Positions 19,696 through 44,358 of a stretch of 48,619 nucleotides of DNA are shown here, piece by piece. Positions within the stretch are counted from its first letter, which is position 1. Every line of letters starts with the position of its first letter. Origin of the DNA: Bacillota bacterium (lineage in GTDB: Bacteria > Bacillota > Sulfobacillia > Sulfobacillales > Sulfobacillaceae); the NCBI GenBank assembly GCA_021784595.1, contig JAJYHT010000003.1:1-48619 (forward strand), in the 5' to 3' direction. A model generated the notes under the pieces. The model was given only the letters and a program-made list of their open reading frames with translations, was not told the DNA's origin and searched no databases. The translations under genes were made by a program, and so were the position numbers.

Positions 19696-20559
19696 ATGGC
19701 GGACTGGTTTTATCGCACTGACCGGTTTTTGGGTATGAACAGCGGGTGGCCAGCGGCGGACTGGATTTATTTTGGGATCCCCATGGACTTTACCGCCTCT
19801 TTTCAACCCGGCTCGCGATTTGGACCAGCCCGTGTGCGAGAAAGCTCGTACGCGGTGGAAACCTATTCATGGGCTCAAGACCGCGATTTGGAAACGTTAA
19901 ACATTCACGATGCAGGAGATTTGGAGTTGCCCTTTGGCAATGTGTTGGCAAGTTTGGACCGCATTCGCGATGCGGCTGATTCCGTGTTGGCTGAGGGCAA
20001 ACGATTTTTCGGGCTGGGTGGGGAGCACTTAGTGACATTGCCGCTCGTGGAGGCGGTCCTCAAGCGTTATCCCGATTTGGTTGTAGTGCATTGGGATGCG
20101 CATGCGGATTTGCGCGACCAATATATGGGCGAGCGCTTATCCCATGCTACTGTTTTGCGAAGGGTGGCTGAACGATTGCAACCGGGCCACTTATATCAAT
20201 TTGGTATCCGTTCGGGTACAGCGGATGAAGCGCGATTTGCCCAAAAACACACCCGGCTCTATCCTCACGAGGTGCTACGTCCATTGACGGAGGTGATGGA
20301 TGAGTTGCGTGTCCGTCCAGTCTATGTCACCATAGACATTGACGTGGTAGACCCCGCGTTCATGCCGGGGACAGGAACCCCTGAACCGGGTGGCATTTCT
20401 TCCCAGGAAGCGCTGGCGGCACTACGTGCGCTCAGCCAGTTGACTGTGGTCAGCATGGATTTGGTAGAGGCGATGCCGGCTCACGATATGTCGCAGCGTT
20501 CGGGGGTTTTGGCAGCTAAAATGGTGCGTGAAGGGTTGCTGGCAATAGCGGGCCGTTAA
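19696..20559 (+). CDS. speB: Agmatinase
   Basis: Manganese ureohydrolase, 287 aa: agmatine to putrescine and urea. Metal ligands are visible in GGEH, WDAHADLRD and TIDIDVVDP, and MPGTGTPEPGG is the substrate loop of the family. The gene abuts speE with no spacer. With pdaD and speE it gives a complete arginine to spermidine route apart from SpeD. Confidence 0.95.
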   Translation: MADWFYRTDRFLGMNSGWPAADWIYFGIPMDFTASFQPGSRFGPARVRESSYAVETYSWAQDRDLETLNIHDAGDLELPFGNVLASLDRIRDAADSVLAEGKRFFGLGGEHLVTLPLVEAVLKRYPDLVVVHWDAHADLRDQYMGERLSHATVLRRVAERLQPGHLYQFGIRSGTADEARFAQKHTRLYPHEVLRPLTEVMDELRVRPVYVTIDIDVVDPAFMPGTGTPEPGGISSQEALAALRALSQLTVVSMDLVEAMPAHDMSQRSGVLAAKMVREGLLAIAGR

Positions 20560-20585
20560 CGTATACATAAGTGTGGAGGATAACA

Positions 20586-22256
20586 ATGGCGGTGTACTCT
20601 CGAATGGGGGAGGCTCGCGACTATATTGCGCGAACCTTGGATGATTCTTTGCGCCGACGAGGTTTTGAGAACCTCGGAGTCTACATCGAGGTGGATCGGC
20701 CAACCGAAGAGGGCCACGGCGACCTGACCTCCAATGTAGCACTTAAGGTTGCGCGCTTTACTAAAATGGCACCAAAAATCTTGGCTGGAGAGCTCGCGTC
20801 TCGATGGCCTCAAGATGACATCGTGGATAGCGTGGAAGCAAAGGGTGCAGGGTTTTTAAACTTTACTCTGAAAACGCGCTGGTTGGCTGAGGTGGTAAAC
20901 CAGGTCAGGGCCGATCCCGCCGGATATGGCGCCAGCGACGCGGGTCAAGGTGCCCGCGTGCTGATTGAATTTGTATCAGCCAACCCGGTGGGTCCCATGG
21001 TGATCGTCAATGGCCGTGCAGCAGCGGTGGGCGACAGTATGGCCCGAATTATGAACAAGGCGGGGTTTTTGGCTCATCGCGAATTTTACGTCAACGACGG
21101 CGGCAATCAGGTATTGAAATTAGGGCAGGCCATATGGCTTAGGCTTTTAGAAATGACCGGCATAGATGTCACGACCAACTGGCCCGAGGATGTCTATCCC
21201 GGTGCTTATGTGAAAGACGTGGCGGCCGCTTGGCGCCGGGACCACCCTGAGGTGCCCTTGGATCAATTAGGGGAGCATAGTTGGGAGCTTTTGGGTGATT
21301 ACGGGGCCCGGGTGTTTCAAAAACAGCATGAAAAGGTGCTACGGCAGTTTGGCGTGGAATTTGACCGCTGGTTTCATGAGAAGGAGCTCCGTCAAGCCCA
21401 TGCTCCCGAAGCGATTGTCGAGCGTCTGGACCGACTCGGATATATTGCAACTGAAGACGGGGCTCGGTGGTTCCTTTCGGAGCGATTTGGGGACGATAAA
21501 AATCGGGTCATGGTCAAGTCCGATGGCACCATGACATATTTTGTGCCAGATGCAGCGTACCATGCAGACAAGTTTGACCGCGGCTACCAATACGTCATCG
21601 ACCTCTTGGGTCCCGACCATCATGGCTACGTGGGGCGCATGCGGGCGGTAGTGCAAGCGCTCGGATATCCCCCCGACCGACTTGAGATTCTCATCATCGG
21701 GTTGGTGCGCCTTTTACGCGGTACCGAACTGGTGAGGATGTCCAAGCGCAAGGGAAGTTTTGTCTTGTTGGAAGATCTGATCGAGGAAGCTGGCGTAGAT
21801 CAGGCGCGATATTTCTTTTTAGAAAGGGCGCCGGAAACGCCCATGGATTTCGATTTGGACTTAGCGCAACTGCGTGACTCAAAAAATCCGGTCTATTACA
21901 TCCAATATGCGGGAGCAAGAATCCACGGGATTCTTCGCCAATGGCGGGAGAGTGAACAGCAGGCGGCGCCGCTTAATCTGGATGTCTTGACGTCACCTCT
22001 GGAACGTGTCCTGATGATACTTCTCAGCCGATTCCCCGATGTGATAGCCCGATCTGCGATGGATCGGGCCCCGCAGTACCTGCCCCGCTATCTCACGGAA
22101 TTGGCGGGCGCCTTTCATGGGTTTTACCGAGAACACCGTATCTTGGATGAAGAAGCTCCACTGCGTCAGGCACGGCTCGCTTTGATTGAGGCCGTTTTGG
22201 CCGTGTTGGCGACAGGGTTGGGGCTTTTGGGCATTTCACTGCCCCAGCGGATGTAG
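20586..22256 (+). CDS. argS: Arginyl-tRNA synthetase with a degenerate HIGH motif
   Basis: 556 aa, class I synthetase. Start ATG 20586 follows GTGGAGGA. N-terminal Add1 tRNA-binding domain (GHGDLTSNVAL), catalytic fold (EFVSANPVGPM, YVNDGGNQV, DLLGPDHHGYVGRM), KMSKS-equivalent RMSKRKG (about 384-390), and the C-terminal anticodon-binding helices (NPVYYIQYAGARIH). The odd point is the HIGH position: residues 139-142 read VIVN, so both catalytic His and the Gly are replaced. This may be a lineage-specific variant of a working enzyme. The gene is 26 bp after speB in the polyamine operon. Confidence 0.93.
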   Translation: MAVYSRMGEARDYIARTLDDSLRRRGFENLGVYIEVDRPTEEGHGDLTSNVALKVARFTKMAPKILAGELASRWPQDDIVDSVEAKGAGFLNFTLKTRWLAEVVNQVRADPAGYGASDAGQGARVLIEFVSANPVGPMVIVNGRAAAVGDSMARIMNKAGFLAHREFYVNDGGNQVLKLGQAIWLRLLEMTGIDVTTNWPEDVYPGAYVKDVAAAWRRDHPEVPLDQLGEHSWELLGDYGARVFQKQHEKVLRQFGVEFDRWFHEKELRQAHAPEAIVERLDRLGYIATEDGARWFLSERFGDDKNRVMVKSDGTMTYFVPDAAYHADKFDRGYQYVIDLLGPDHHGYVGRMRAVVQALGYPPDRLEILIIGLVRLLRGTELVRMSKRKGSFVLLEDLIEEAGVDQARYFFLERAPETPMDFDLDLAQLRDSKNPVYYIQYAGARIHGILRQWRESEQQAAPLNLDVLTSPLERVLMILLSRFPDVIARSAMDRAPQYLPRYLTELAGAFHGFYREHRILDEEAPLRQARLALIEAVLAVLATGLGLLGISLPQRM

Positions 22257-34341: not shown

Positions 34342-36855
34342 CTAAGGGCGGTCGACTATCTCTTGGGACGCTATGAGGAGCGTTGCTTGATTAAAAACCA
34401 GAGGCGGTGCAATGAGGTATCCTTGGGCTCTTTGGCACCCCAAACCTTGCAATAAAGCCCACTCGGCCTCTCGTTCCACTCCCTCGGCGACAATGTCCAG
34501 CATAAAGGTCTGCGCCACGGCAATGGTGGCTTGGATAATGGCGCGAGTTTTGGGTTCTTCGGAGTGCATCACAAAGGTTCGATCAATTTTTATTTCATCC
34601 AACGGAAGATTGTGAAGAGCGGCCAACGAAGAATATCCGGTGCCGAAGTCATCGAGCGACCATAATACGCCCAAGTTGTGCAATTCCGTCATAATCGCAA
34701 CAACCTGATCCAGGTTTTTGACAAGAATAGATTCGGTGATTTCCAATTTTAACAGGGCCGGGTTAAAGCCGGTCTGCTTAAGGGCGTTTTTCACCATGTT
34801 GGTAAATTGGGGGTCTTCCAGTTGCCGGGCAGATACATTGACATTGACACTCAAATTGGGGCAGTGCGAACCGAGTTGCCAGCTTTGGACCGCCAGCAAC
34901 GATTCTCGCAGCACCCAAGCCCCCATCGGCACAATCACTCCGGTCCGTTCCGCTGCCGGAATGAAGTCCGCTGGAGCTATCAGACTGCGTTCAGGATGGT
35001 TCCAGCGCAACAACGCTTCGAATCCTTGAATTTGGCGAGTCTGCATCGATACAATGGGCTGAAACATGAGCATGAACTGATCTTTGACCAATGCCCGTTT
35101 CAATTCTCCCTCCATGGTCGCCGCTTTAAGTCGTCGTGATTCCATGTGAGGATTATATTTTTTACACTGGGAACCTCCTGCTGCTTGTGCTTCCAAGAGG
35201 GCGATGGTGGCCTGTTGCAGCAATTTTTGAAGGTGGCTTGATTGATATTGCGCTTGGACCATTCCTATACTGACGGTGGGTGTCCACTCATCCTCGAAGG
35301 CGGTGTTGAGCACCTCGTTGATGGTGTCTAACAAACGGGCGGCAACGCCTTTGGCTGGAGCGTCAATGAGGACACCAATGCGGCTTTCGGTGATCTGGGT
35401 GACGATCGCCTTGGGGTTGAGGTGGTGGCGAGTGGTGTCGGCTATCAGCCGCATGACTTGTGCCACTTGAACCCGGCCTTGATGTGCTGCAAAGACAGGA
35501 TATTGATCCAGTTCAATGACAATCAATGCCACGACATCAAATTGCTCGGCGAAGGCCAGGGATCCAGAGTCCCAAAATCCCAAAAGAGGTAATCGAGTGA
35601 TGGGGTCCAGCATTAATTCTCCTGAGCGAAATAATTGGCGAACCTCATGAGGGGACAGTTCACGGGTCACGGATTGGAATCGGATGCCAGGCTCAAGGTC
35701 CGTCAGGATGGACTCAATCCATTGAAATTCGACGGTTTTGCGCCGCACGCGATAGATGGCCCGGGACGACCCGTTGGTGCGCATTTCGTGGAGAGCAGAT
35801 GTCATGCGATACCAGTCGCCGGGATGGGTAAATTCTCCAGGATAATGGCCTAAAAGATCCTCTTTGTGGTATGACCCCAGCAATAAACCAGAAGAACGAA
35901 TTTCGGTGAACCGGCCGTCTTTGTCATGGAATGCGACGATGGGCGCGGGAATTTCCTCGTCATCCGTGATGGCTGATTTGGATTGGGAGTCAATGAGATA
36001 GGTTGCCCATCGGCGCATGGCGTACATCCATTCTAAATCATACGGTGTGGGAGCAGCGGGTGTCGTGGCATACAGGGCTAGTGTGCCCAGGATCCTGCCT
36101 GCATCTGACACCAGCGGCACAGACCAACATGCCGCCAAATTTCGTTGAGTGGCCAAATCGCTAAAACCGTCCCAACGTCGATCGTGGGCGATGTCCAACG
36201 TATAAATAGGACGTTGGTAATAGGCTGCGGTTCCGCACGATCCAGCTTGCGGTCCGATTTGCAGGCCGTTGATCTTGTCTAAAAACTCCTGCGGCAGGCT
36301 TGGAGCCGCGCCGATTTGCAGATGTCCCCGGTTATTTACAAGAACAGAGGCCAACAAATGCGGGCGTTGCGTTTCAATGTAGCGCATTAATATCTCCAAT
36401 GGCGCCCAGCCCGCGCTACGTTCCAATAGTTTATCCAACCTAGGGGGCAGTGACGACGTGACACTACGATGATCGGTCAGAGGATCGCGGATGGCCGCCA
36501 TGCGCAAGAACCACGATAGGTCCCGCCAGGCGCCTATAGTTGGCGCCGGATCGGCAAGTTGCAAAACCGTTCCCGTACCCTGTCCTTGCCCTATCACCAG
36601 CCAAGTTTCATCGCTCTTTGGCGTGCTGATGCGCCCGGGGACATCCCACCCCTCCTCCAGTAACCACGGGACAATATGTTTTTGGGCCGTTTTCTCGAGG
36701 ATTAATGCGCCTCCAGCGTTTAGGGAGACCTTTCCCGCTTCTCTAGCCTTTAGCACCTCGGCTAGGGTGCTGATAGCGGCCGCATAGAGACCATTAGATG
36801 GTTGGGCGGATAAGCGTTGCCAGGCGCTGAGCAAAGAAGAGGATATGGTCGTCAT
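34342..36855 (-). CDS. GAF-PAS-GGDEF(degenerate)-EAL protein, probable c-di-GMP phosphodiesterase
   Basis: 837 aa from ATG 36855 (GGGAGTG upstream). GAF domain about 160-290 (IGPQAGSCGTAAYY, ACWSVPLVSDAGRILGTLALY), PAS-like segment about 300-410, a GGDEF-fold domain whose signature is lost (ITESRIGVL at that place), and an EAL domain with FEALLRW, VNVSARQLE, ITES, DDFGTGYSSL, IKIDRTFV and AEGVE...QGYL, all expected catalytic residues. It should hydrolyse cyclic-di-GMP to pGpG, with the GGDEF-like part possibly sensing GTP. No membrane segment. A c-di-GMP riboswitch sits about 7 kb away. Confidence 0.92.
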   Translation of the reverse strand: MTTISSSLLSAWQRLSAQPSNGLYAAAISTLAEVLKAREAGKVSLNAGGALILEKTAQKHIVPWLLEEGWDVPGRISTPKSDETWLVIGQGQGTGTVLQLADPAPTIGAWRDLSWFLRMAAIRDPLTDHRSVTSSLPPRLDKLLERSAGWAPLEILMRYIETQRPHLLASVLVNNRGHLQIGAAPSLPQEFLDKINGLQIGPQAGSCGTAAYYQRPIYTLDIAHDRRWDGFSDLATQRNLAACWSVPLVSDAGRILGTLALYATTPAAPTPYDLEWMYAMRRWATYLIDSQSKSAITDDEEIPAPIVAFHDKDGRFTEIRSSGLLLGSYHKEDLLGHYPGEFTHPGDWYRMTSALHEMRTNGSSRAIYRVRRKTVEFQWIESILTDLEPGIRFQSVTRELSPHEVRQLFRSGELMLDPITRLPLLGFWDSGSLAFAEQFDVVALIVIELDQYPVFAAHQGRVQVAQVMRLIADTTRHHLNPKAIVTQITESRIGVLIDAPAKGVAARLLDTINEVLNTAFEDEWTPTVSIGMVQAQYQSSHLQKLLQQATIALLEAQAAGGSQCKKYNPHMESRRLKAATMEGELKRALVKDQFMLMFQPIVSMQTRQIQGFEALLRWNHPERSLIAPADFIPAAERTGVIVPMGAWVLRESLLAVQSWQLGSHCPNLSVNVNVSARQLEDPQFTNMVKNALKQTGFNPALLKLEITESILVKNLDQVVAIMTELHNLGVLWSLDDFGTGYSSLAALHNLPLDEIKIDRTFVMHSEEPKTRAIIQATIAVAQTFMLDIVAEGVEREAEWALLQGLGCQRAQGYLIAPPLVFNQATLLIASQEIVDRP

Positions 36856-36961
36856 GAGCGGCGTTGTCACTCCCGTCAGTCGTTTGTAATGTTCCGCAAT
36901 TCGACCAGGTGCGACAAATCTCCTTCTTAGAGGTCTAATTTTTATTGCCTCGTGGCGAGGG

Positions 36962-38458
36962 CTAACTGGGTTGACGAACCAGTCTTAGTGTGCCAGGCCG
37001 TGTATCACTGGCGGCAGGCGATGAAAAAAAGAGGCGGCGCGCGTTATTGTGGATAAGGTTTTGAAACGTTTCTGGCGCGACATCGGGCTCGAGTTGCTTT
37101 AATTTATCCCATTCTGTTCCAAAATCAGAGGCCAAGCCCCCGCTTCCAAACACTACACGGTCACTCGCGACGGCAAGAGCTTCCTTGATTGCCGAAAGTG
37201 GGGCCCGGCTGGTTTCCAGCCATACTTGAGAATGTCGTTCCAGGAGCATCAGGGCTTCTTCCAAATACGGAGATCGTCCTCCCATGTGCAGTAAGACAAG
37301 AGGGATGGCGGGAAACTCCAATAAAAAGTCGTCCCATAGCAAGGGGCTGTCATACCGAAGGGGTGCCGGCCCTGGCCCTGTATGCACCAAAAGGGGTCTT
37401 CGAAACAGGGATAATACTTTTCCAAGGTCTCCTACAGGCTCTGCATAAGGAGCAATGCCGTCCAGACCCGGGTATGCGAATGCTCCGCGAGCTCCCTCGT
37501 TGAGCAAAAGGGATAATTCGCGGCTCGCCATGGGGCGTGCCGGAGCCAGCGCCAACCAGCGGGGATTGCCGTTGGATAGCGACAAAATTTCGCGGCCTGC
37601 TGCCGTGGGATCCGAGGCCTTTAGCGCGCCCCAGTCTAAGATCACCTTTTTTTCGGCTTCCGGGCCTAAAGTATGTTTAGGGTCAACCGTGATGCCTTTG
37701 GGAGGGGAGCTTAGGGGGACGTAACAGGACACGTCGACCACGCCTAGTTGAATCAACGGGGTCTTGGGGTCCTGCGCCATAAGCAGTGTTTCACTGTCAT
37801 CTGCGCTCGAGATAATGCGGCCTTGGTGGGCAATGACCGCACCGCCGCTGTACTGCACTCCGCCAAAACGCCCTAGCAAAGGCGCTAAGACCACCGTGGC
37901 GCCGAGCTCCAGACTTCTGGTCACGGTCACTTCTTGCAATTGATGGCGTTCGGTGGCGGTGCGGGGGTTAGCCGCCATGACGATTAAGTTGGGGTGCAAT
38001 TTAAGGGCATCTTGCCAAATCACCGGGTCGGTGGCGTCCAAACCGAGCAAGACGATAATTTTGCCCCAACTGGTGTTAATCGGTGCAATATTGATGCCAG
38101 GTTCGAACCAGGGACGTTCGGTGGGTTGAAACAAGATTTTGGACTGTGAGCCCGCGAGGGCGCCATCTCGTTCAATGACCAGGCCGCGCTGTTGCTTTTT
38201 GCCGGTTTCTCCATCCAAAACGCGCAGACTACCGGTAATCACCAGCAAATTCAATTCTTTAGCCAGCTGTCCAAGTTTTTCCGTATAACGATTGGGGATT
38301 ACTTCTACGGGATTCAGTCCCATAAACCATTCGGGAAATACGATAAGGTCCACCCCGTGGCTGGCAGCTTGGCGCATATGTCCTAAGACACGATTAAGGG
38401 CGAGCTCTACTTCGCGAACATATGGAGTCTGACTTACAGCGACACGTGGAACAGACAC
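36962..38458 (-). CDS. Fusion of a nitrilase-like domain lacking its Cys and an amidohydrolase-like domain
   Basis: 498 aa from GTG 38458 (AGAGGGGAA upstream). Residues 1 to about 265 follow the carbon-nitrogen hydrolase fold: Glu43 in VFPEWF and Lys107 in QSKILF are kept, but the nucleophile position is Gly139 in LLGLD, where ICYD is expected (GGT instead of a Cys codon). The C-terminal part resembles an amidohydrolase-2 barrel (PLLVHTG, VLLHMGG, NNARRLF), yet the usual GSDxP metal Asp reads GSGGLA. Both modules look impaired, so the protein may bind rather than cleave. It lies next to an intact paralogue. Confidence 0.75.
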   Translation of the reverse strand: MSVPRVAVSQTPYVREVELALNRVLGHMRQAASHGVDLIVFPEWFMGLNPVEVIPNRYTEKLGQLAKELNLLVITGSLRVLDGETGKKQQRGLVIERDGALAGSQSKILFQPTERPWFEPGINIAPINTSWGKIIVLLGLDATDPVIWQDALKLHPNLIVMAANPRTATERHQLQEVTVTRSLELGATVVLAPLLGRFGGVQYSGGAVIAHQGRIISSADDSETLLMAQDPKTPLIQLGVVDVSCYVPLSSPPKGITVDPKHTLGPEAEKKVILDWGALKASDPTAAGREILSLSNGNPRWLALAPARPMASRELSLLLNEGARGAFAYPGLDGIAPYAEPVGDLGKVLSLFRRPLLVHTGPGPAPLRYDSPLLWDDFLLEFPAIPLVLLHMGGRSPYLEEALMLLERHSQVWLETSRAPLSAIKEALAVASDRVVFGSGGLASDFGTEWDKLKQLEPDVAPETFQNLIHNNARRLFFSSPAASDTRPGTLRLVRQPS

Positions 38459-38490: not shown

Positions 38491-38519
38491 ATTATAGCTA
38501 TAATAGAAAGAAATGGCAA
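38491..38519 (-). promoter_or_regulatory. Strong promoter of the nitrilase-amidohydrolase fusion gene
   Basis: Minus strand: -35 TTGCCA (38519-38514), exactly 17 bp, -10 TATAAT (38496-38491). One of the best vegetative promoter matches in the window, which argues the fusion gene is expressed separately from its upstream neighbour and is not a decaying pseudogene. Confidence 0.8.
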
Positions 38520-38553
38520 TTCAAAATTGCCAAAGATAAATGTATAGGAAGAT

Positions 38554-39588
38554 TCAGGAAAAATTCCAACTGGCGTGAACGATCTCTTCCGCCTCCGGGC
38601 GTGCCTGGTAATCCGCACTTTGAGCCAAAATTTGGATGCCGTCATGGGGGGTTCGTGCCAAGATGACACTGGTGCCGTCAAAATGGACGTCCAATAGTTG
38701 AAGGAGAAGCTGGGGGTTGATGACGACTTCGATGGACTGACAGTCTTCTAGCGCCGCCATCGCGCCTTCGTCCCACCATTGTTGGCGCCGTGTGCGGTGT
38801 CTGGGGGTTTGATCGAAAACCCAAGGTTCCTGCCACCACCAGGGGTTGGCCGAGGGCTGAGCGACAATACGCGCTCCGTTTTTGTCCAACAGAGGCATTA
38901 ACGGGGTGAAATCAGGTTCTCCCGTGGTATGGGGCACCCGAAATCCATCGTAGCAGATAGCGGTGGCCATTGGTATCTGGTTCCAAGAACAGACGGCTGC
39001 CGCGGCATCCAAGGGACCGGGCGACAAATCCAAGACATCCTCTTGGGTGGGCACCAGATTGACCTTGCGCGTGGAGTACAGGATTTGCCCCCTGGGGTCG
39101 ACGGTAAAACTGAAGTTAAAAATTCTTGCGGACTGGGCGCGGAATAAGGCCGGATTTGGGTCCAGGCGATTTTGGGGCAGCAAGGCGGAGCCAGCCACAA
39201 TGGTGATGTTGTATTTTTTTGCCAACTGGGTCATGGTCGTGTACCAAATTCGCCATACGTCTTTTGCTGTCCAGACAAAAAAGGCCTCTTTCAGCGAACG
39301 GGTTCGGTATTTGGCCATGGTCGCTATAATAGACGGGAAAAGATGTTTGCCGATGCGGGCAAACGCCTCGTCCAAGGTGTGCGCGTTGCCGATCAAGGAC
39401 ACCCGATTGGCTATCACTAAAAAGGTTGCCAGATCTTCAGGGAATACCGCCAGGGCTGCTTGACTGGCAGGATCTCGGAGCAGAGCGGTTTGCTGCAAAA
39501 GGGAATCGATTTTGCGGAAAAAGGCGGACTCGTTCGCATAATCGTCCAACGTCATGTATGGTTGAACGGCAAACAAATCGACGCGCAT
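38554..39588 (-). CDS. Carbon-nitrogen hydrolase (nitrilase family), intact triad
   Basis: 344 aa from ATG 39588 (GGGAGAGG upstream). Glu51 in AVFPEDL, Lys about 178 in STRKVNLVP, and Cys about 211 in ATAICYDGF give the full triad of the amidase/nitrilase superfamily. It has long insertions before the Lys and after the Cys (AQPSANPWWWQEPWV). Substrate unknown; divergent from hutU with 102 bp between. An N-carbamoyl or omega-amidase activity in histidine breakdown would be a guess. Confidence 0.85.
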   Translation of the reverse strand: MRVDLFAVQPYMTLDDYANESAFFRKIDSLLQQTALLRDPASQAALAVFPEDLATFLVIANRVSLIGNAHTLDEAFARIGKHLFPSIIATMAKYRTRSLKEAFFVWTAKDVWRIWYTTMTQLAKKYNITIVAGSALLPQNRLDPNPALFRAQSARIFNFSFTVDPRGQILYSTRKVNLVPTQEDVLDLSPGPLDAAAAVCSWNQIPMATAICYDGFRVPHTTGEPDFTPLMPLLDKNGARIVAQPSANPWWWQEPWVFDQTPRHRTRRQQWWDEGAMAALEDCQSIEVVINPQLLLQLLDVHFDGTSVILARTPHDGIQILAQSADYQARPEAEEIVHASWNFS

Positions 39589-39690: not shown

Positions 39691-41397
39691 ATGGATGAAA
39701 AATTAAGGACCCAGTTGCAAACGGCGTTGCGTGCAACAGTGCGGTCGCGTCACATTCATGCTTTGAGAGGGCAGGAGCGGCTTTGCAAGGGCTGGGCGCA
39801 AGAAGCGGCTTTGCGGCTTCTAATGAACAACCTGGATCCTGAGGTGGCAGAAAAACCCCAAGAGTTGATTGTATACGGTGGGAGTGGCAAGGCGGCCCGC
39901 AACTGGGATTCTTTTGATGCCATTGTGGCGGCCTTGACGGATCTCGAAAACGACCAAACGCTGATCATTCAATCCGGGAAACCAGTGGCAGTTTTTCAAA
40001 CCCACGAGAGGGCTCCACGCGTCTTAATCGCCAATAGTCTCTTGGTCCCCCACTGGGCGACCTGGGAAAATTTTTGGGCGTTGGAGCAAAAGGGTTTGAC
40101 CATGTATGGGCAAATGACTGCGGGTTCGTGGATCTATATTGGGAGCCAGGGAATTTTGCAAGGAACTTATGAGACGCTGGCCGAGTTGGCCGCTCAGCAT
40201 TTCGGCGGCACACTCAAGCACCGCGTGGTCCTCACGGCGGGTTTAGGGGGAATGGGTGGAGCGCAACCCCTGGCCACTACCATGAACGATGGGGTAGCCT
40301 TGGTGATTGAGGTCGACGCCCACCGGATGCAGCGACGGCTGGAGACACGCTATTTGGATCGGGGAGTCTATGATCTGGATGAGGCGCTGCATTTGGTAGA
40401 ATCAGCCAAGAAAGCAGGCGAAAGGCTTTCGGTAGGATTATTGGGCAATGCCGCCGAAATATTGCCGGCACTGGTGCAAAGGGGATTTCGACCTGATGTG
40501 GTGACCGATCAGACGTCGGCCCACGATCCGCTAAATGGGTATGTGCCAGCTGGACTTAGCTTGGACGAGGCTAATAGACTTCGTCAGGCTGACCCCACAG
40601 CCTATGTCGAACGAGCCATAAAATCTATGGGCACGCATGTGCAAGCGATGCTCGACTTTATGGATGAGGGCGCCATAGTATTTGACTACGGCAACAACTT
40701 GCGCCAGAACGCCGCGTCCGCTGGCGTGGCGCGCGCATTTGACTTTCCAGGCTTTGTTCCTCAATACATACGGCCGCAATTTGAAGAGGGTCGTGGACCA
40801 TTTCGTTGGGTGGCTTTGTCGGGCGATCCCGAAGATATCAAAAAAACAGACGCCAAGGTGTTAGAACTGTTTCCCGAGGACGAGAGACTGCGGCAATGGA
40901 TTACGATGGCAGAGGAACGCGTAGCATTTCAAGGATTGCCCGCACGAATTTGTTGGCTTGGGTATGGTGAGCGGGCTAAATTTGGGCTGGCAATTAACGA
41001 GATGGTCAAGAGTGGCGAGTTGAAGGCTCCGATCGCAATTGGCCGTGACCACTTGGATGCAGGATCGGTCGCCTCACCCAATCGTGAGACCGAAGCGATG
41101 AAAGATGGGTCGGACGCCATTGCGGATTGGCCGATCCTGAACGCTTTGCTGAACACTGCGGCCGGAGCCAGTTGGGTGTCCGTGCATCATGGGGGTGGCG
41201 TGGGGATCGGCTATAGTCTGCATGCCGGCATGGTGGTTGTCGCTGATGGGACCGCCGAGGCTGATTGGAGATTGTCTCGGGTGTTGACTACAGATCCCGG
41301 GATGGGTGTCGTACGGCATGCGGATGCGGGTTATCAAAAGGCGCGCCGTGTCGCACGAGAACGCGGCATTAATATGCCCATGCTAGACTATGACTAG
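39691..41397 (+). CDS. hutU: Urocanate hydratase
   Basis: 568 aa, NAD+-dependent hydration of urocanate to imidazolonepropionate, second step of histidine degradation. [20 protein letters not shown] and [14 protein letters not shown] are family signatures, and Cys421 in [11 protein letters not shown] is the conserved active-site Cys. ATG 39691 has GAGGAGG upstream. hutH, hutI and hutG are absent here, so this copy is isolated from the usual hut operon. A histidine-kinase gene follows by 19 bp. Confidence 0.96.
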
Positions 41398-41416: not shown

Positions 41417-42289
41417 ATGGAATTAATCCAAAAGGTGCTGGGCGAGATTTTGACATGGGCTGAAACGGTGGGCATAGGTCTGATTGGATTGTCCTTAGGG
41501 GAAGCTGTGCGGGGCGACTTCACTGGGGGGCAGTTTACCGTAGAACAAAAAACCCGGGGGGGCGTCTTGATCTTGTGTTTTGATCAGCCGGTTCCCCCAA
41601 GCATGCCCCTTTTGGTGGCGCGCTTAGTGGAAGAGCGTGTCGACCATGAATCTTTGATGTTCTTGATGTCAACCGCCGTGCATGATGCGAAAAGCTCATT
41701 GGCGGTAGCGGCGGGATATCTGGAGCTGATGCAATGGCAAAATCCTCAAGATGAATATGTGCAGCGTGCACAAACACAACTGGTGCGATTAAGCGAGCGT
41801 TTGGAAGAAGTCTTGGGCGGCATTGCATCCTATCCTCCGATGCCGTTGGACCCTAAAAATTTGATTCAGCAAATTGTTGACGAGCTAAGCCCCTATTACA
41901 AAAGCCAAGGGATTGACCTGACTTTTTATGCCAGTCATGGCAGGGTCTTGGCGGATCGCAGGCGGCTGGGACAGGTCGTTCACAATTTGCTGAACAATGC
42001 GGCACAGGCCATTACAGCTCCTGGATATATCATCATTGAAATGAGACCTGACACCGATTGGATTGAAATACGCATTCGCGATTCAGGTCCTGGTGTCGAT
42101 AGAGATCTCTTGTCCCGGCTGTTTACTCCGTCTATGACGACTAAAGCAACCGGCCACGGTCTAGGTTTGGCATTTTCCCGACGCATTGTGGAGTCCTGGG
42201 GCGGCACCTTGAGGTATGAAGAGGGAAATCCGGGAGCGGTCTTCGTGATGCGCCTGCCGTCCATGAACGGCCGTTATGAACCTCAATGA
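41417..42289 (+). CDS. Histidine kinase with short N-terminal region
   Basis: 290 aa, no membrane segment. N-terminal 80 residues of unknown fold, then a phosphoacceptor helix with His89 in STAVHDAKSSLAVAAG, and an HATPase_c domain (HNLLNNAAQA N-box, DSGPGVD G1, FTPSMTTKATGHGLGLAFS F/G2). The HD-AK pattern resembles NtrB/KinA-like kinases. It is 16 bp before the next kinase gene and 19 bp after hutU. Confidence 0.88.
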   Translation: MELIQKVLGEILTWAETVGIGLIGLSLGEAVRGDFTGGQFTVEQKTRGGVLILCFDQPVPPSMPLLVARLVEERVDHESLMFLMSTAVHDAKSSLAVAAGYLELMQWQNPQDEYVQRAQTQLVRLSERLEEVLGGIASYPPMPLDPKNLIQQIVDELSPYYKSQGIDLTFYASHGRVLADRRRLGQVVHNLLNNAAQAITAPGYIIIEMRPDTDWIEIRIRDSGPGVDRDLLSRLFTPSMTTKATGHGLGLAFSRRIVESWGGTLRYEEGNPGAVFVMRLPSMNGRYEPQ

Positions 42290-42305: not shown

Positions 42306-43904
42306 TTGAACAATGATATGTCATTTCAATTGATTGCGGAATTTCAACGGTTTGTCGATCGCTCCAGGGGTGATGCCAATATTCGGTTTATGGCGTCCCA
42401 ATGGATTATTGATCGAGTCTTGCAGATGTTTCCCGGCCCCGGCCTGTCGATTCGGCTCTGGAACCCCAAATGGGAAATTTGGGAACGGGTAGCCGTGGGA
42501 GGACTAGACTTGTCGCGTGACGAAGACATTGCTGAAAATCCGCAGTTTCTCACGTATGTCCATCTGATCCGCCAGGACAAAGAGCCGGTGTACGTCGATT
42601 TGACTAAGACAGACGTGCCTTCATGTTGCCATGGGGTCATCAGCCATGGCGTAGAAAGTCTTTGGACATTTCCACTGTCCAATGGGCATGATGAGGTGAC
42701 GGGACTTTTTACGCTGTATTGGACCCATGAGCCCAAAGCGAGTCAAGAGATAAAAATGCGCTGGAGCAACATTTCGCACACCGTGGGGATGATGATTCAT
42801 TGGGTCGTTATGCTTCAAACCCAGCAGAATGAGCAGACCATGATGCAAACTCTGCTGGATTTAACCGGCATGGCCGCTGTATACAGCCAGGGCAACGAGG
42901 TGGGCTACGCCAATGATCGATTCTTGCAGCTGTGGGGGCTGGCACGCTCAGATCTGAGACTAGACCGTGATCAAATTTTAAAGAAGATGTCTGTTCGTTT
43001 GACAGATCCCGCTGCTTGGTGTGAGGTCGTCAGCTCGAACCCAGCTGAAGATGTGGACCATATCGTCGAGATGAAAGGAATGCCCGCGCGCTACATCCGC
43101 TGTCGGATTCATGGGTTGAGAAGTCCTTCAGGCCAATTGATTGGGCGTCTGGCGGTCTATACGGAAATCACGGAACAGATGGCCATCAAAAAGGAGCGGG
43201 ACGCGTTTTTGTCATTGGTAGCCCATGAATTTCGCACTCCGATTACGGTGATTGAAGGATTGGCCGACTGGATGACCCGACCCGAATCTGCGGTGAGTTC
43301 AGAGGTGGGAGAAAACTTACGGGCGATTTGGCGAGAATCGTCTCGTCTGGCGCGATTGATTCGCGAGATATGGACGGCATCGCAAGTACAGGATCCGAGT
43401 TGGGCGCCAAATTGTGACAAAGTGGATTTAGCGTCCCTGGTACGCGATGAAGTGGAGATGAGGGGACGAATTTGGCCCGGGCGACCTTGGCGCTACGACG
43501 GCCCTGGCACGATGCCCGTGGTAGGCAATGCAGAACTTTTGACGATGGTCGTGCAGGTCCTGCTGTCCAATGCCAACCGCTTTTCGGATTCCGAGAAGCC
43601 AGTGGATATTCGGCTTGGGGCAGACGGGCTCACGGCACGGCTGGAGGTGATGGATCGGGGGTTTGGGATATCGTCGTTAATGGCGAAAGAATTATTCGAG
43701 CACATGCCCGATCCCACCAAACGACCGGCTACGGGCGGCATTGGGATTGGCCTCTATTTATCGCGCAAGGTTCTCGAAAAAATGCAAGCCAGCATTGCCT
43801 ACCAGCCTAGGCCTTACGGAGGCTCGATTTTTACGGTGCGTATTCCTCGTGCGCTGAGGGGGGCAAAACGCTTTCCACCGTCTTCCACAATTGAGCCAAC
43901 TTGA
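42306..43904 (+). CDS. GAF/PAS sensor histidine kinase
   Basis: 532 aa from TTG 42306 with AAAGAGGA upstream; an ATG at 42318 is the alternative. A GAF-like N-terminal domain (about 1-170, including CCHGVISHGVESLWTFPL), a PAS domain (about 185-290, GMAAVYSQGNEVGYANDRFL), HisKA with His307 in VAHEFRTPIT, and HATPase_c (QVLLSNANRF, DRGFGISS, GGIGIGLYLS). It is soluble. Its 3' end overlaps the convergent receiver gene by 74 bp, so the two transcripts can pair. Confidence 0.9.
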   Translation: MNNDMSFQLIAEFQRFVDRSRGDANIRFMASQWIIDRVLQMFPGPGLSIRLWNPKWEIWERVAVGGLDLSRDEDIAENPQFLTYVHLIRQDKEPVYVDLTKTDVPSCCHGVISHGVESLWTFPLSNGHDEVTGLFTLYWTHEPKASQEIKMRWSNISHTVGMMIHWVVMLQTQQNEQTMMQTLLDLTGMAAVYSQGNEVGYANDRFLQLWGLARSDLRLDRDQILKKMSVRLTDPAAWCEVVSSNPAEDVDHIVEMKGMPARYIRCRIHGLRSPSGQLIGRLAVYTEITEQMAIKKERDAFLSLVAHEFRTPITVIEGLADWMTRPESAVSSEVGENLRAIWRESSRLARLIREIWTASQVQDPSWAPNCDKVDLASLVRDEVEMRGRIWPGRPWRYDGPGTMPVVGNAELLTMVVQVLLSNANRFSDSEKPVDIRLGADGLTARLEVMDRGFGISSLMAKELFEHMPDPTKRPATGGIGIGLYLSRKVLEKMQASIAYQPRPYGGSIFTVRIPRALRGAKRFPPSSTIEPT

Positions 43905-44208
43905 AAGGTTTGGCCAAAGATGTTGTAATCGCAGGGTGTCGTGCCATTTGTTCCAATTCTCCCGACGCGGACAGCAAGATGATGGGAGCCTGGCCGCCTT
44001 GGTGCCGGTAAAGGTCTGCGACTTGGTGCCCAGGAATATCTGGCAGGCGGAGGTCGACAATAATGACATCGGGATCTCCGGCCAGAGCTGATGCGAGACC
44101 GGTTTCGCCGTTGGACGCCTCAGATACCGAGACGCCGAACTTCGCTAAAGCGAGCTTGATGATATGCCGAATACCGGCTTCATCGTCGATCACCAAAATG
44201 TGTGGCAA
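43831..44208 (-). CDS. Single-domain response regulator
   Basis: 125 aa from TTG 44208 with GGGAAAGG upstream; longer frames exist without support. Asp8-Asp9, phospho-Asp52 in DVIIVDLRLPDIPG, Ser in ILLSASG and Lys in LAKPFK. No output domain. Convergent with and overlapping the GAF/PAS kinase, its likely partner. Confidence 0.88.
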   Translation of the reverse strand: MPHILVIDDEAGIRHIIKLALAKFGVSVSEASNGETGLASALAGDPDVIIVDLRLPDIPGHQVADLYRHQGGQAPIILLSASGELEQMARHPAITTSLAKPFKLAQLWKTVESVLPPSAHEEYAP

Positions 44209-44358
44209 TGGTTCCAAGTCCTTTCCCTGATGTCGGTGGGTGTCGACGGCAACGCAGAGAATTATCCTCGAAATTGACGGCATTTTCAAGGGGGACTTGA
44301 CGGAATCTCGGGTGGCTGGTTAGGGTAGAGGTTAGCGACAAAGAAAAGAGGGACGCGT

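Follow-up and report, generated by a model that had tools for sequence, protein, structure and literature searches.

A conserved fusion of nitrilase-like and amidohydrolase-like domains in the order around Sulfobacillus, both lacking key catalytic residues

The gene at positions 36962-38458 (minus strand) of the window, the whole 48,619-nucleotide stretch of Sulfobacillaceae DNA that we analyzed, encodes a 498-amino-acid fusion of a dead nitrilase-like domain and a shortened, equally dead amidohydrolase-like domain. Its retention across the order around Sulfobacillus, the invariance of a glycine (Gly139) at the position of the nucleophilic cysteine, and a low dN/dS ratio support well the conclusion that the gene is an ancient double pseudoenzyme, maintained by selection and not the outcome of a recent mutation. 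Since the fusion has been kept throughout the order, it probably serves a different function instead of being a damaged enzyme; binding a small molecule or steadying a partner enzyme is the most likely one.

The reading frame begins with a GTG codon preceded by a purine-rich stretch and continues without breaks. The initial annotation had described a long, intact gene for a nitrilase-like/amidohydrolase-like fusion, and Pfam recognizes both parts. The CN_hydrolase domain of the nitrilase superfamily (PF00795; E 1.7e-14; 54.3 bits against a cut-off of 23.2) spans residues 5-229 (37772-38446, minus strand), and the Amidohydro_2-like part (PF04909; E 4.8e-13) spans residues 352-477 (37028-37405, minus strand). 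This second match covers profile positions 137-287 of 289, that is, the C-terminal half of a domain that is not full-length; in profile comparison, the similarity reaches as far as about residue 281 on the N-terminal side. None of the NCBIfam models matched the fusion at or above its cut-off. By sequence, the nearest solved structures are amidases of the nitrilase superfamily. The predicted model of the fusion is weak (mean pLDDT 59.9) and served only to identify the fold of the N-terminal part, for which Foldseek returned amidases and nitrilases (best E 8e-14).

In the nitrilase superfamily, a cysteine forms the covalent intermediate. The corresponding LLGLD segment of the fusion (residues 137-141) aligns without gaps to the ICYD-type motifs of intact relatives, placing Gly139 (38042-38044, minus strand) exactly where the nucleophile is expected. 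All 36 readable copies, from 37 loci of which one lacks the N-terminal part, carry this glycine and the nearby Asp141. The remaining catalytic positions are equally invariant (36/36 each), with Glu43 at the position of the catalytic base (38330-38332), Lys107 at that of the catalytic lysine (38138-38140), and Glu114 at that of the second glutamate (38117-38119; all minus strand). Such constancy is not expected of drifting relics. Among the matches listed, the 17 nitrilase-like relatives from outside the order all have cysteine in the nucleophile column and keep the glutamate and lysine in place; at the position of the second glutamate, 13 have E as aligned, 2 have D, and 2 have another residue. 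These 17 sequences are nitrilase-part matches from the class and phylum searches, some of which lie within longer open reading frames, and, like the outside amidohydrolases described below, they were selected with the fusion's own profile. No cysteine elsewhere in the fusion that might substitute for the lost one is invariant among the aligned copies. The near-invariant residues of the C/S/T/Y/H/K type are Y13, K88, K107, S182, S417, and S439, and the further invariant polar residues are Q10, N49, R57, R79, Q89, Q90, S182, and D242. The initial annotation, made from the window alone, had noted that the glutamate and lysine are kept while the cysteine is glycine, and had proposed a retained fusion of two dead enzymes; the conservation of Gly139, which it had singled out for checking, extends this reading to every readable copy. 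Homologues of the same fusion with cysteine at this site, which it had named beforehand as the sign of a sporadic mutation, did not turn up in searches of the order, the class, and a sample of the phylum.

The metal site of the second domain has been dismantled from several sides. We take the DxHxH, middle-histidine, and final-aspartate motifs to be metal ligands, in line with general knowledge of the amidohydrolase superfamily. When the C-terminal part of the fusion was compared by hhalign with 28 amidohydrolases from outside the order (a set that excludes the duplicate L195 and two nitrilase-only matches, L122 and L126), 192 columns were aligned with an E-value of 1.9e-33, starting at column 81 of the outside profile in local mode or at column 53 when a global alignment was forced. 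The first 52 to 80 columns of that profile, which include the DxHxH motif carried by 27 of the 28 outside relatives, have no counterpart in the fusion. By eye, LDWGAL stands in place of an IDFHTH-like segment, marking residues 277 and 279 as the likely counterpart of DxHxH; none of the 37 fusion copies has a histidine at either residue. Seven of the 37 copies do have an HxH past residue 230, but it sits at 333 or 407-409 and not at the DxHxH place. The two middle histidines, present as aligned in 27 and 28 of the 28 outside relatives, are relics in the fusion that have been lost in some lineages: H359 is found in 30 of 37 copies and H391 in 20 of 36, with serine in 15. At the last metal-ligand position, Gly440 (37139-37141, minus strand) replaces aspartate in all 36 copies (FGSG for FGSD). 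The FGSGG of the fusion sits at the site of FGSD or a similar motif in intact amidohydrolases, and 27 of the 28 outside sequences have an acidic residue there by motif count, which was used instead of the messy alignment of residue 440 in this set (17 D, 1 E, 2 G, and 8 gaps). The initial annotation had likewise noted GSGGLA in place of GSDxP in the window's copy.

The initial annotation had suggested searching for the same fusion in other genomes. A full-length profile (A3) detected it in 37 of the 42 genomes of the window's order but in no further class genome among the 112 searched. Contig ends truncate two of the copies, that of G031 at its start and that of G033 at its end. A phylum sample of 299 genomes included two of the order, both with the fusion; none of the remaining 297, a few of which also belong to the class set above, carries the full fusion. 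Outside the order, the matches at E up to 1e-10 are partial ones to one domain or the other. The order genomes without the fusion are G001 (71% complete), G002 (63%), G015 (83%), G010 (96%), and G036 (97%); in G036 and G015, the open reading frames of at least 90 amino acids around NIT2, the gene described below, gave no profile match at E up to 10. Across the order, the copies are 43-76% identical to that of the window. A scan of named genomes with the window protein as the sole query yielded four relatives at 64-76% identity, in Sulfobacillus benefaciens AMDSBA4 and Bacillota bins, and a plasmid search returned eight records, none with query coverage above 46%. No stop codon interrupts any of the 37 fusion matches. 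For L002-L003, the one pair similar enough to avoid saturation at synonymous sites and the sole basis of the selection figure, dN/dS is 0.050 for the fusion (0.036/0.718) and 0.151 for NIT2 (0.102/0.675); ratios between the window and its relatives were left unused because synonymous distances are saturated in most comparisons.

Upstream of the fusion and on the same strand lies NIT2 (38554-39588, minus strand), a nitrilase-superfamily protein with a complete catalytic set. Its Glu51, Lys175, Glu183, and Cys212 are invariant in 14 of 14 aligned copies, and Cys212 is present in 30 of 30 copies in a larger comparison. The neighbor had been called an intact paralogue of the fusion: intact it is, but a paralogous relationship finds little backing, as BLASTP between the two proteins gave nothing better than E 0.33 and profile comparison a 64% probability over 57 columns. 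The predicted NIT2 model was poor (mean pLDDT 33.9) and was set aside. NIT2 occurs in the fetched stretch of 31 of the 37 fusion loci, once as a fragment, and six loci have none there; in all 31 it is upstream of the fusion and on the same strand. Measured from the last aligned NIT2 residue to the inferred fusion start, the distance is at most 435 bp in 27 of the 37 loci, where the fusion stands beside a catalytically complete candidate partner, and 3.4 to 5.2 kb in four exceptions, one of them with the NIT2 fragment. Loci in which NIT2 is kilobases off, a fragment, or not in the stretch include L037, L038, L051, L052-L054, L058, L061, and L063.

At the genome level, with NIT2 counted at E up to 1e-100, both genes are present in 33 of the 42 order genomes and neither in three (G001, G002, and G010). 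A complete NIT2 is missing from four fusion-bearing genomes (G005, G013, G021, and G007, the last with a fragment only), and two, G015 and G036, have NIT2 without the fusion. The pair is therefore not obligatory, and in the genomes without a complete NIT2, if not elsewhere, the fusion must be useful independently of it. In the copies from G013 and G021, H359 is also replaced. NIT2 relatives exist outside the order in genomes free of the fusion, the best being in G119 (E 3.8e-100). We also compared evolutionary distances over the 20 loci that have the fusion, NIT2, and a neighboring membrane protein. The correlation between fusion and NIT2 (r 0.858; partial r 0.36) is no better than that between the fusion and the unrelated membrane protein (0.904), and NIT2 and the membrane protein correlate at 0.863; this test therefore does not single out NIT2.

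The fusion appears to have a promoter of its own, TTGCCA-N17-TATAAT (38491-38519, minus strand; 11 of 12 positions matched). Among the 10 promoter-like sites between 33500 and 44500 it ranks first, which agrees with the earlier description of one of the best promoters here, though the total of 10 is not above that of shuffled sequence (mean 7.7, sd 2.9), and the scan alone therefore proves little. TTGCCA-N16/18-TANNNT lies in the 130 bases ahead of the inferred fusion start in 20 of 36 loci, as against none of 29 NIT2 genes and 13 of 3600 stretches drawn at random from these loci. L070, which lacks its start, and genes whose matches are weak or begin late do not enter this count, and the 20 loci are related and so do not represent independent events. 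Four more loci have TTGACA ahead of the fusion without a TANNNT box, and 11 of the 36 have no TTG[CA]C[AG] there at all. Given its own promoter in many loci, the fusion is not simply read together with NIT2. A perfect 8-bp inverted repeat, TGGCAATT-TTG-AATTGCCA (38514-38532, minus strand), overlaps the -35 box and could be an operator or a weak NIT2 terminator. By eye, it is not kept as such in most relatives' upstream stretches; L041 and L042 show a similar TGGCA-N5-TGCCA arrangement.

The wider neighborhood of the pair includes genes of several pathways. The urocanase gene hutU (39691-41397, plus strand) and NIT2 are transcribed divergently in the window, an arrangement shared by relatives from two families but not by every locus; HutI is encoded elsewhere in the genome. 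Beside HutU and NIT2, the segment 41417-44289 holds two histidine kinase genes (41417-42289 and 42306-43904) and a response regulator gene (43831-44289), and at least one of these recurs beside NIT2 in a number of relatives. Downstream of the fusion, 34342-36870 (minus strand) encodes an 842-amino-acid protein with GAF, PAS, GGDEF, and EAL domains, for which the clustering of open reading frames in the other fetched loci yielded no counterpart. Further away, 19696-22256 (plus strand) contains an arginase-family gene followed by an apparent arginyl-tRNA synthetase gene (the family was tested for the arginase, and the synthetase named by eye). In a number of relatives, arginase-family and arginyl-tRNA synthetase-like genes lie downstream of the fusion itself, in a set that includes spermidine synthase-like and pyruvoyl arginine decarboxylase-like genes (named by eye).

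We favor, with a probability of roughly 40%, the explanation that the fusion is an ancient pseudoenzyme that binds a ligand without hydrolyzing it and acts most likely as a regulatory or scaffold partner of NIT2, a role that we infer from sequence and gene order. An ancestor of the order already carried the fusion, with glycine in place of the nucleophilic cysteine and with an amidohydrolase-like domain devoid of its final aspartate and of the metal-binding segment at its N-terminus. Its thiol-free nitrilase pocket may bind an amide-, carbamoyl-, or carboxylate-like ligand and, being unable to form an acyl-thioester, would hold such a ligand rather than cleave it. The loss of the nucleophile beside a frozen remainder of the catalytic set fits a binding, non-cleaving site, and the entry titles of Cys-to-Ala amidase mutants with bound amides (4izs, 5ny7, 6ypa) suggest that pockets of this kind can hold substrate. 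The metal-less second domain could serve as an interaction surface. The conserved gene order makes NIT2 the first candidate partner, and in the least certain step of the proposed mechanism, the fusion would control NIT2 assembly, stability, or activity. The initial annotation had considered a sensor or regulatory partner made from two dead enzymes possible. Of this idea, the partnership gains from the conserved order of the two genes but is weakened by the four genomes without a complete NIT2 and by the weak test of correlated evolution.

The chief rival is a repurposed enzyme that has dispensed with the thiol. Here, the pocket formed by Glu43, Lys107, and Glu114 would react with water or a substrate group as the nucleophile, with Gly139 giving room, and the protein would be a lyase, hydratase, or hydrolase of a non-thiol type. 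The three residues are fixed in all 36 copies, those from genomes without a complete NIT2 included, and the invariant Q10, N49, R57, R79, Q89, Q90, S182, and D242 could form a new pocket. Set against this are the role of the cysteine in making the covalent intermediate in this superfamily, where no case of turnover in its absence is known to us, the loss of the metal site in the second domain, and the amide-bound Cys-to-Ala mutants cited above; we consider such an enzyme unlikely, if the most serious competitor. A more doubtful proposal, which we regard as improbable, makes the fusion a stand-alone ligand sensor that feeds the neighboring two-component system (41417-42289, 42306-43904, and 43831-44289). 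Kinase and regulator genes do lie divergently beside the NIT2-fusion pair here and at several other loci, but no kinase of these two clusters adjoins the pair in, for example, L041, L042, and L045-L049, the kinases and the fusion are oppositely transcribed, and Pfam finds no signalling domain in the fusion.

Least probable of the functional proposals, and in our estimate very improbable, is a part in histidine or polyamine metabolism, as a helper of HutU or of the arginase-family and related genes found downstream in relatives. The divergent placement of hutU, seen here and among relatives from two families, speaks for the former, and the arginase-family gene cluster and arginyl-tRNA synthetase gene nearby in a number of loci for the latter, but the neighbors vary between lineages. 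HutI, moreover, was sought in 31 genomes that carry the fusion and fell short of its family cut-off in 12, among them G012 with a truncated match just under that threshold; the fusion therefore does not follow the histidine pathway, and we rejected a link to histidine catabolism. As for a sporadic mutation or a gene decaying in one genome, the missing cysteine itself, and nothing more, would suggest it, whereas glycine in 36 of 36 copies, 37 matches free of internal stops, and a dN/dS of 0.05 (one pair) rule it out, leaving it a negligible probability.

By Pfam and Foldseek, the fusion shares its N-terminal fold with the nitrilase superfamily, represented by the Nesterenkonia amidase (3hkx/4izs) and the Bacillus cereus formamidase (5g3o). 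Like these, it has the glutamate, the lysine, the second glutamate, the K-x4-P-x-E motif, and the strand before the nucleophile; unlike them, it has glycine for cysteine in all 36 copies and is joined to an amidohydrolase-like domain. The amidase's F-P-E after the nucleophile and A-N further on are also replaced. With Amidohydro_2 (PF04909), the fusion has in common the VHTG, LLHMG, and LETS motifs and the alignment over 192 columns (E 1.9e-33), but it lacks the DxHxH segment, has glycine in place of the last aspartate, and has lost the middle histidines in some lineages. A search at the level of titles and the beginnings of abstracts, with most subscription journals outside its scope, found no paper on the fusion protein or on a family of nitrilase-superfamily pseudoenzymes. 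A Glu-Lys-Glu site that has stayed fixed order-wide without a thiol and is combined with a metal-free amidohydrolase-like domain might tentatively be viewed as a new functional class of the nitrilase superfamily, serving in non-covalent catalysis or as a small-molecule receptor.

Pseudoenzymes are well described among kinases and phosphatases. Dihydroorotase belongs to the amidohydrolase superfamily, and the nitrilase active site of NitFhit is complete. NitFhit (1ems, a Foldseek match) and other fusions of the nitrilase superfamily join a nitrilase-like and an unrelated domain, as here, but the second domain of our fusion is a different one. The pseudo-dihydroorotase of Pseudomonas is inactive yet needed by the active aspartate transcarbamoylase (PMC7053772). 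It resembles the fusion as an inactive amidohydrolase relative, with a partner role that is experimental there and would hold here by analogy; unlike for the fusion, the part of PMC7053772 considered here describes no nitrilase-like domain. The fusion is a pseudoenzyme built from two well-known superfamilies. A nucleophile-free family in which the catalytic remainder is frozen offers a clean test of what a Glu-Lys-Glu pocket does without its thiol, and the complete hydrolase NIT2 that adjoins the fusion is an obvious candidate partner.
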